A stretch of DNA of 64,000 nt from Alphaproteobacteria bacterium (GTDB lineage Bacteria > Pseudomonadota > Alphaproteobacteria > JANQMY01): NCBI GenBank assembly GCA_028289425.1, contig JANQPL010000018.1, forward strand, positions 186,001 through 250,000, read 5' to 3'. The notes beneath the pieces were generated by a model. The model did no database searches and was not told the origin of the DNA. It saw only the letters and a program-made list of their open reading frames with translations. Each line of letters starts with the position of its first letter. Position 1 is the stretch's first letter. Position numbers and translations under genes: made by a program. Positions 15,830 through 17,142 of this stretch are shown here, piece after piece.

Positions 15830-16249
15830 TCAGCTTTCCGGATTGCGCGGGAAGATGGGCCAGCTTGGCGCGCCTTTCAGCCATTCGTGCTCCCGTTCCC
15901 CCCAATAGGCGGCATCGGGCTTCAGCCAAGACGGGTCATCCAGCGTGCCGGCCTTGATGAATTCCACTTCCGGCGAGAATTCGGCGCGGGTGATCAGCGG
16001 CGATCCGCATTGGTTGCAGAAATAGCGCAGCACAGCGCCGCCGCTTTCGCCTATGTCCTGGTAGGCGGTCAAACTGTCACCGGACGCGTCCAATGAGCCT
16101 GCCGGGAAAGCCACCACAACACTCAACGCCGACCCGCTTTGTTTCTGGCAGTTACGGCAGTGACAAACAGCCGTGGTGATGGGCTCCGCGTCCGTTCGGT
16201 AGCGGACCTTGCCGCACAAACAGCCGCCTTCAATCTTGGTCATGATCAT
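15830..16249 (-). CDS. GFA/CENP-V domain zinc protein
   Basis: A 139-residue protein of the GFA family, named after the glutathione-dependent formaldehyde-activating enzyme. Zinc-binding cysteines are in GGCLCGKVRY near the N-terminus, CHCRNCQKQSGS near residue 30 and FCNQCGSPL near residue 80. Most members have no proven activity, so formaldehyde chemistry should not be assumed. The ATG at 16249 or the one at 16243 could be used. It is followed by a 136-bp gap before the GPH transporter. Confidence 0.85.
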   Translation of the reverse strand: MIMTKIEGGCLCGKVRYRTDAEPITTAVCHCRNCQKQSGSALSVVVAFPAGSLDASGDSLTAYQDIGESGGAVLRYFCNQCGSPLITRAEFSPEVEFIKAGTLDDPSWLKPDAAYWGEREHEWLKGAPSWPIFPRNPES

Positions 16250-16309: not shown

Positions 16310-16330
16310 ATGGGTGCATGGGGTTCATCC
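16310..16330. repeat. 21-bp direct repeat, left copy
   Basis: The sequence ATGGGTGCATGGGG followed by TTCATCC at 16310-16330 recurs exactly at 16437-16457. The two copies bracket the 28-bp-stem hairpin. A shorter match (ATGGGGTTCA) lies just before hfq near 10834, probably by chance. Confidence 0.9.
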
Positions 16331-16347
16331 GCATATTGGCCCCCGCA

Positions 16348-16420
16348 CCTCCCCGCTCCCCCGGCCCAACCACCCGTAGCAGGGTACCCTTGGGGTGGTT
16401 GGGCCGGGGGAGCGGGGAGG
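16348..16420. repeat. 28-bp perfect inverted repeat (long hairpin)
   Basis: The left arm at 16348-16375 (beginning CCTCCCCGCTCCCCC) is the exact reverse complement of the right arm at 16393-16420. The 17-base loop contains a further 10-base palindrome AGGGTACCCT at 16381-16390. The element is far longer and more GC-rich than a normal terminator and has no U-tract. It is framed by the 21-bp direct repeats. Confidence 0.92.
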
Positions 16421-16436
16421 AGAGGCTCGATCAACA

Positions 16437-16457
16437 ATGGGTGCATGGGGTTCATCC
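16437..16457. repeat. 21-bp direct repeat, right copy
   Basis: An exact copy of 16310-16330, starting 17 bases after the right arm of the hairpin. Both copies have the same orientation. Confidence 0.9.
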
Positions 16458-16503
16458 AAGTTTTTGCCGGTGACCCCCTTGATTGATGTCCAAATACACC
16501 AAA

Positions 16504-16521
16504 GGCCCGCATTCGCGGGCC
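16504..16521 (-). terminator. Terminator-like hairpin downstream of the DMT gene
   Basis: GGCCCGC (16504-16510), a 4-base loop and GCGGGCC (16515-16521) form a strong 7-bp stem. On the minus strand it is followed by TTT and mixed bases. It lies about 170 bases beyond the stop of the DMT transporter gene and could end that transcript. Confidence 0.45.
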
Positions 16522-16692
16522 CCAATAGTGTTTCGGATTTCGGTTCCATGTCGGCCTTCCTTCGTGTCGACGGCGGCCTCCCCATCCTGTCAGACTATCA
16601 CAATTGCATCGGCGTTTCGTGGCCGATGTCACGGAGCGTGGTGGGACGAACATCGTGCTTAACAAAGAAGAACTACTCCTGGTGGCAGCGCT

Positions 16693-17142
16693 CTAACCGC
16701 TGCTCTCCACCAGCGCGGCGCCGGCGAGCACAAGACCAAGGCCCAAAAGCTTAAGGGCATTGACGGGCTGTTGTTGCACACCGAAGGCCCCCACATGGTC
16801 CGCCAGCGTTGCGCCCAGCAATTGTCCCCCGACGATACACACAAAGAACAGGGCAACCCCCAGTACCGGCGCGATCATGACGCCGCCCACCACAAAGAAA
16901 ACGCCGATCAGCCCGCCCAGGGCGACCCACCAGGGCAAACTTCGCACCTGGGAGAGATCTCCGTGCCCTTTCCCGAGCGTCAGCCAAATCGCCACAACCA
17001 AGGCAAGACTGATCGCCACCGAAATGGCGGCGGCCAGTAAGGTGCTGTCCAAGCGCCCGGCCATGGCCGAATTGATCGGCGGCTGAAAGGACAAGGCGGC
17101 GCCCACCGCAATGGCAGCGAGGATGTAAAGGGGATAGGCCAC
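16693..17142 (-). CDS. DMT-superfamily transporter, YdcZ/DUF606 type
   Basis: A 149-residue integral membrane protein with about five hydrophobic helices. The N-terminal AVGAALSFQPPINSAMAGRL and the central VGGVMIAPVLGVALFFVCIVGGQLLG segments fit the DUF606 branch of the drug/metabolite transporter superfamily, half-size proteins that probably work as dimers. The substrate is unknown. It is a single gene on the minus strand, divergent from the alpha/beta hydrolase gene across a 140-bp gap. Confidence 0.82.
   Translation of the reverse strand: MAYPLYILAAIAVGAALSFQPPINSAMAGRLDSTLLAAAISVAISLALVVAIWLTLGKGHGDLSQVRSLPWWVALGGLIGVFFVVGGVMIAPVLGVALFFVCIVGGQLLGATLADHVGAFGVQQQPVNALKLLGLGLVLAGAALVESSG

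Follow-up and report, generated by a model that had tools for sequence, protein, structure and literature searches.

A long intergenic hairpin framed by direct repeats is probably one unit of a dispersed composite repeat in an alphaproteobacterial genus

Rhizobium intergenic mosaic elements (RIME) and the Brucella repeats are intergenic palindromic elements of Alphaproteobacteria with a length of about 100 bp; bracketing by direct repeats is not a known trait of theirs. REPs measure 20 to 40 bp, and those of the CGTC type carry stems of 8 to 9 bp and a terminal CGTC tag (PMC3733652). Together with Br-REP1 of Bradyrhizobium (PMC5082802), the CGTC REPs of Alphaproteobacteria are dispersed intergenic palindromes with tens to hundreds of copies. 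MITEs, such as those of Coxiella (PMC5896051), are short, non-coding, and dispersed, and the TM-ECO intrastrand triplex motif, with a consensus of a 37-nt stem plus a third strand, comprises intergenic G/C-rich hairpin repeats tied to unstable loci (PMC4666352).

The element described here lies in a window of 64 kb (the whole stretch of DNA that was analyzed), taken from a genome of 5.42 Mb (the source genome, G000; its congener is referred to as G001). Like REP/BIME families, its hairpins are dispersed, non-coding, often located beside stop codons, and divided into lineage-specific variants, and their number (at least about 75) makes them a high-copy extragenic palindrome. Unlike REPs, however, they have a conserved stem of 24 to 26 bp (28 bp in the window), arms of up to 33 nt, a loop of 15 to 17 nt, and no GTAG or CGTC tag at the foot of the stem, and the units of the source genus are bracketed by direct repeats. 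The element resembles REP/BIME and MITE families but falls outside the REP/BIME definition in size and tag. The resemblance to MITEs extends to outer inverted repeats (such as CTAGACTCGTTTT/AAAACGAGGCTAG) around the hairpin in some other lineages only, whereas the outer repeats of the source genus are direct and neither a target duplication nor a parent transposon was identified. In size, intergenic position, and palindromic nature, the hairpin is also like RIME and the Brucella repeats, a likeness of general description rather than of sequence; TM-ECO differs from it in both sequence and architecture. Finally, a strict direct repeat alternating with an exchangeable segment at a constant period is reminiscent of CRISPR and integron cassette arrays, but the sites reported here are dispersed, consist mostly of single units, and carry variants of one palindrome. 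A CRISPR array was ruled out, with one or two segments per dispersed unit, all of them the same palindrome, and no cas gene recognized among the flanking proteins.

Table 1. Features of the element and of its surroundings, in window positions
Feature	Position	Strand	Remarks
Left direct repeat (DR), ATGGGTGCATGGGGTTCATCC	16310-16330	+	Core of a conserved box of ~24 bp, AARATGGGTGCATGGGGTTCATCC
Right DR, ATGGGTGCATGGGGTTCATCC	16437-16457	+	100% identical to left DR; followed by the flank AANTTTTG-N8-CCCC, common to solo DRs
Left hairpin arm, C-rich	16348-16375	.	28 bp; covariance model agrees
Right hairpin arm, G-rich, with G3+N1-7 x4 motif	16393-16420	.	Perfect reverse complement of left arm
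Loop, 17 nt, GTAGCAGGGTACCCTTG	16376-16392	.	Palindrome AGGGTACCCT inside, at 16381-16390
Extended hairpin (HP)	16343-16425	.	Member of class-wide hairpin family; arms 16343-16375/16393-16425
One DR-HP period, 127 bp	16310-16436	+	Unit missing at the congener's orthologous site
Terminator-like hairpin ending in a T-rich tail; belongs to the YdcZ-type (-) gene upstream	16502-16523	-	From terminator scan; adjoins the element, not part of it
GFA-family gene (glutathione-dependent formaldehyde-activating enzyme-like)	15830-16249	-	Start ~60 bp from left DR
YdcZ-type transporter (exporter) gene	16693-17142	-	Other flank of the intergenic region

The initial annotation, which described a perfect hairpin with a palindrome in its loop, framed by two identical 21-bp direct repeats in non-coding DNA, proved right to the base: the arms are exact reverse complements, the loop palindrome and both repeats are present, and the element is intergenic, between two minus-strand genes (Table 1). 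When extended to 33 nt, the arms are still 94% complementary. The hairpin is the sole close-armed inverted repeat of at least 18 nt within the 64-kb window, and the numbers expected by chance are about 3e-10 for a perfect 28-bp inverted repeat with a spacer of up to 100 and about 4e-6 for a pair of exact 21-bp repeats less than 200 bp apart. As RNA, the element folds at -98.2 kcal/mol (z = -5.7 against shuffles), with z values of -5.7 and -6.2 for the two strands, both far better than shuffles. An Rfam search of the window gave 0 matches. The observation that the stem lacks a T-run holds on both sides, a separate terminator lies at 16523 to 16502, and the 28-bp stem was rejected as an intrinsic terminator; the stem is not in the list of our terminator scan, which takes loops of 3 to 8 nt only. 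A single-copy terminator conserved in place is likewise excluded; hairpin and DR are both multicopy, and the congener's site has no hairpin.

The suggestion of a repeat unit of a dispersed family was borne out directly by copies of both HP and DR throughout the genome. Queried with the 191-bp window region, the genome yielded dozens of matching places, and a covariance model built from 47 G000 hairpins detected at least about 75 distinct ones among the 150 strand-specific candidates to which scoring was limited. When up to 2 mismatches were allowed, the 18-bp core of the DR gave 85 hits in the genome, compared to 0 for the reversed control. Four layouts were found, namely, DR-HP-DR (the majority), tandem DR-HP-DR-HP-DR (L076 in G000 and L163 in G001), solo DR, and HP without DR. 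Spacing from DR to DR is narrowly distributed, with a mode of 126 bp (16 of 38 pairs) and 29 of the 38 pairs falling within 123 to 129 bp. Many copies are truncated or interrupted, and the hairpins are intergenic wherever their context was read. Those without DR often lie no more than about 10 nt from a stop codon, within or between operons (L052, L057, L087, L088, L102, and L104), as judged with a home-made codon-usage gene caller. In some hairpins (L062, L099, L069, and L095), the loop or an arm encloses another structured sequence, examples being GGTCCGCGCTTCGCGCGGCCC and a stretch of about 90 nt, GCGCGGGCC...CGCGCACC, and other hairpins in G001 have inserts close to AAAAACCGACATTGG. Separately, short palindromes of the GTCGCCCCTGCGAAAGCAGGGGCCCATA or GGGACGACG type, which resemble CGTC-type REPs of Alphaproteobacteria, occur at many DR loci (L060, L065, L086, and L105 in G000, among others).

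Beyond the source genome, the hairpin was sought across the class and found in 11 of 190 genomes, 2 of the source genus and 9 from other families; in a sample of the phylum, 12 of 398 genomes were positive, all 12 of them Alphaproteobacteria. The hairpins fetched from several lineages share their arms and, in most cases, a loop motif of the AGGRTAC type, while their outer flanks vary by lineage, with inverted repeats (such as TAGACCATTTTCGA or GAGACCGTTTGAGA) in some and the DR in the source genus only. Compensatory changes affect 7 of 24 stem pairs within G000 and 10 of 26 among 36 hairpins from several lineages of the class. Double-changed cells numbered 94, compared to 25.5 in shuffles, a comparison inflated by the relatedness of the sequences, and to at most 13 with slid partner columns, a control that keeps this relatedness but favors a structure derived from the same sequences. 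Such a conserved, covarying fold is compatible with a function as either DNA or RNA, and arm complementarity can also be maintained by quasi-palindrome correction. A G-quadruplex, the motif of which is present in 43/47 and 34/36 G-rich arms, was rejected as a conserved feature; column shuffles equaled these counts in 88 to 89 of 500 cases, so that composition alone may explain the motif. In several lineages (L205, L206, L233, and others), the element ends in TAGANC, and neighboring genes, even convergent ones, thereby obtain a TAG stop codon from the element. A plasmid search with the window hairpin returned no copies; with the hairpin of another lineage, relatives were found on plasmids of Sphingomonas, Novosphingobium, and Sphingopyxis, where no empty site was close enough to define a target duplication.

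The DR, by comparison, appears to be confined to the source genus in the genomes sampled; four exact matches in unrelated genomes are near the number expected by chance (estimate, about 2) and were discounted. Its proximal side faces a gene start at 35 of 48 loci (P = 0.002), versus 21 of 44 for the distal side, and loci at which the two sides are discordant favor the proximal one by 14 to 3 (P = 0.013), gene starts here being those of the home-made caller. The commonest DR is GGTGCATGGGGTTCATCC in G000 and GGCGCATGGGGTAGATCC in G001, a difference seen at the same loci: position 3 is T in 70 of 86 G000 copies and C in 40 of 40 G001 copies, and positions 13 to 15 are mostly TCA and AGA, respectively. 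We read this genome-wide, species-specific sequence as concerted evolution. The left and right DRs of a locus tend to carry the same minority allele (Fisher's exact test, P = 0.03 in each species), which indicates that DR copies are also coupled locally. Genome-wide, the penultimate base varies in left DRs (ATGC, ATAC), whereas right DRs nearly always read ATCC, and the two copies are therefore not equivalent. Solo DRs are also well conserved, which suggests a separate role for the DR in addition to recombination. A regulon was considered and rejected, the genes adjoining annotated DR loci having no common function by eye. Four DR loci (L071, L088, L099, and L103) adjoin genes for N/G-rich repeat proteins, apparently of one paralogous family, three of the four proteins beginning with MKPLWILG or similar. 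Operator-like palindromes of the GTCCCTTTTTGGGAC type recur near gene starts upstream at L051, L068, L075, L079, and L101.

The only congener compared, and the sole other genome of the genus, family, and order in the comparison, is G001, a draft assembly in 630 contigs (contamination, 10%), whose genes are about 70 to 90% identical to those of G000. At its counterpart of the window site (C330), a solo DR, GGCGCATGGGGTAGATCC, occupies the same position between the GFA gene and the terminator, and there is no hairpin. We probed 17 further loci, picked from the G000 side, by means of gene fragments and found 9 of them in G001. With the window included, the hairpin is common to both species at 1 of these 10 loci (L059), and at 5 of the 10 G001 has a DR without an intact hairpin (the window, L064/L214, L072/L215, L103/L218, and L066/L216, the last with a remnant of a hairpin arm). 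DR-less hairpins are missing from G001 at another two (L104/L212 and L084/L213), L080 has neither DR nor hairpin there, and L079 has a degenerate hairpin and no DR. Between the two species, the hairpin has been either lost or gained at such loci. The idea of a small non-autonomous mobile element was upheld in part: presence or absence between the two species and the lack of coding capacity fit it, but neither a transposase nor a target-site duplication was found, the flanks of the empty sites at L104/L212, L084/L213, and, in Sphingomonas, L210/L231 being too diverged to define one. Two RAYT-like Y1 transposase genes are present in G000 (L101:1952-2626, minus strand, and L118:1396-1911, plus strand), one of which scores just under the NCBIfam cutoff. 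The L101 gene lies 325 bp from an HP-DR unit, yet the repeats on its borders (GTGCACTGTCACCG) are its own and bear no relation to the hairpin, and we regard it as an unlikely mobilizer.

For 17 orthologous pairs, we compared the G000 hairpin with its G001 orthologue, against other G001 hairpins; the pairs are few, and the outcome relies on global alignment scores. DR-flanked pairs (n = 11) had a mean score of 0.593, versus 0.614 for random DR-type G001 hairpins, and their orthologues ranked 11 to 46 of 47. Pairs without DR (n = 6) had a mean of 0.770, versus 0.703 for random ones (20 of 400 random sets were as high), with ranks of 1, 3, 4, 10, 11, and 47, the last being a lone pair (L134/L143), one copy of which has an inserted stretch. 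Ranks differed between the two groups (P = 0.017), which separate completely once two interrupted pairs are left out. Since DR-flanked orthologues are no more alike than random hairpins, these hairpins have been replaced or independently inserted since the species split; if the two species had each gained a different hairpin at a shared DR, the resulting pattern would be indistinguishable from that of exchange. The loop of one orthologous pair (L055/L149) is flipped in orientation.

As judged from sequence comparison, the best reading is that the hairpin in the window and its two DRs make up a single unit of a composite repeat, DR-HP-DR, specific to the genus. HP is an approximately 100-bp palindromic module from a hairpin family found in several alphaproteobacterial lineages, and the DRs would be the portion of the locus that changes less. 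We consider it on balance probable that this is a REP/MITE-like dispersed element, the flanking DRs of which serve as a recombination substrate by which hairpins are deleted, reacquired, and exchanged between loci. Recombination between DRs, slippage, or single-strand annealing would remove the hairpin and leave a solo DR, and ectopic exchange among DR-bounded copies could restore a hairpin, add tandem units, or swap one variant for another, in whichever direction a given locus may have changed, as well as homogenize the DR sequence genome-wide. Replication forks stall at long hairpins, which SbcCD-type nucleases cleave; the likely trigger would therefore be the palindrome itself, with repair then making use of the DRs, and neighboring genes may be affected as a consequence. 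This composite-repeat model economically covers the solo, single, and tandem states, the DR shift, the restriction of swaps to DR-bounded copies, and the L055/L149 loop inversion.

We think it unlikely, by comparison, that the DR is the binding or promoter-proximal site of a trans-acting factor with species-shifted specificity and that the hairpin, a REP/MITE-like insertion distinct from it, targets the DR by preference and was acquired by each lineage on its own. The orientation of DRs toward gene starts, the retention of a solo DR at the window site, and the existence of DR-less hairpins of variable presence would all be in keeping with it, but 13 of the 48 DRs point to no gene start, the starts themselves come from our own caller, DR-linked genes share no evident function, and DR conservation is stricter than is usual for regulator sites. 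Quite improbable, in our view, is a site-specific cassette, with the DR as the attachment site of a dedicated recombinase and HP plus one DR (126 bp) excised and inserted in an integron-like or Xer-like fashion. The fixed register and period, the near-invariant DR of about 21 bp (absent from the reversed control), the solo and tandem states, and exchange at occupied sites argue for it; against it, no integrase or recombinase gene was recognized by eye beside the 48 annotated DR loci, except for one RAYT with repeats of its own, and the shared minority allele of both DRs at several loci is more readily explained by local duplication or conversion than by import of an attachment site. We give slightly less credence still to a protein-free cassette system, in which hairpins of about 105 bp would be shuffled among sites of about 21 bp near gene starts by a predicted dedicated recombinase, altering neighboring transcription units.

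Lastly, the element might be inert, ancient MITE-like debris, the arms of which are kept complementary only by quasi-palindrome template-switch correction and the solo DRs of which are random deletions. The loop reversal at L055/L149 is what template switching would produce, and truncated or interrupted copies are numerous. Arm sequence and loop motif persist in distant lineages with double-sided changes, however, and a species-wide DR shift is unexpected for inert DNA, so that we regard this as highly unlikely.

In the papers searched, also by means of the arm sequences, there was no description of the hairpin, whose stem covaries and whose loop motif is conserved in several lineages of one class; the window copy has no Rfam match. 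Dispersed palindromes are common, but the evidence for their movement tends to be indirect. In this genus, a locus can be seen in an empty, a single, or a tandem state, and the flanking repeat tells exchanged hairpins from inherited ones. The idea that palindromes bring about their own turnover via flanking repeats thereby becomes open to a direct test.
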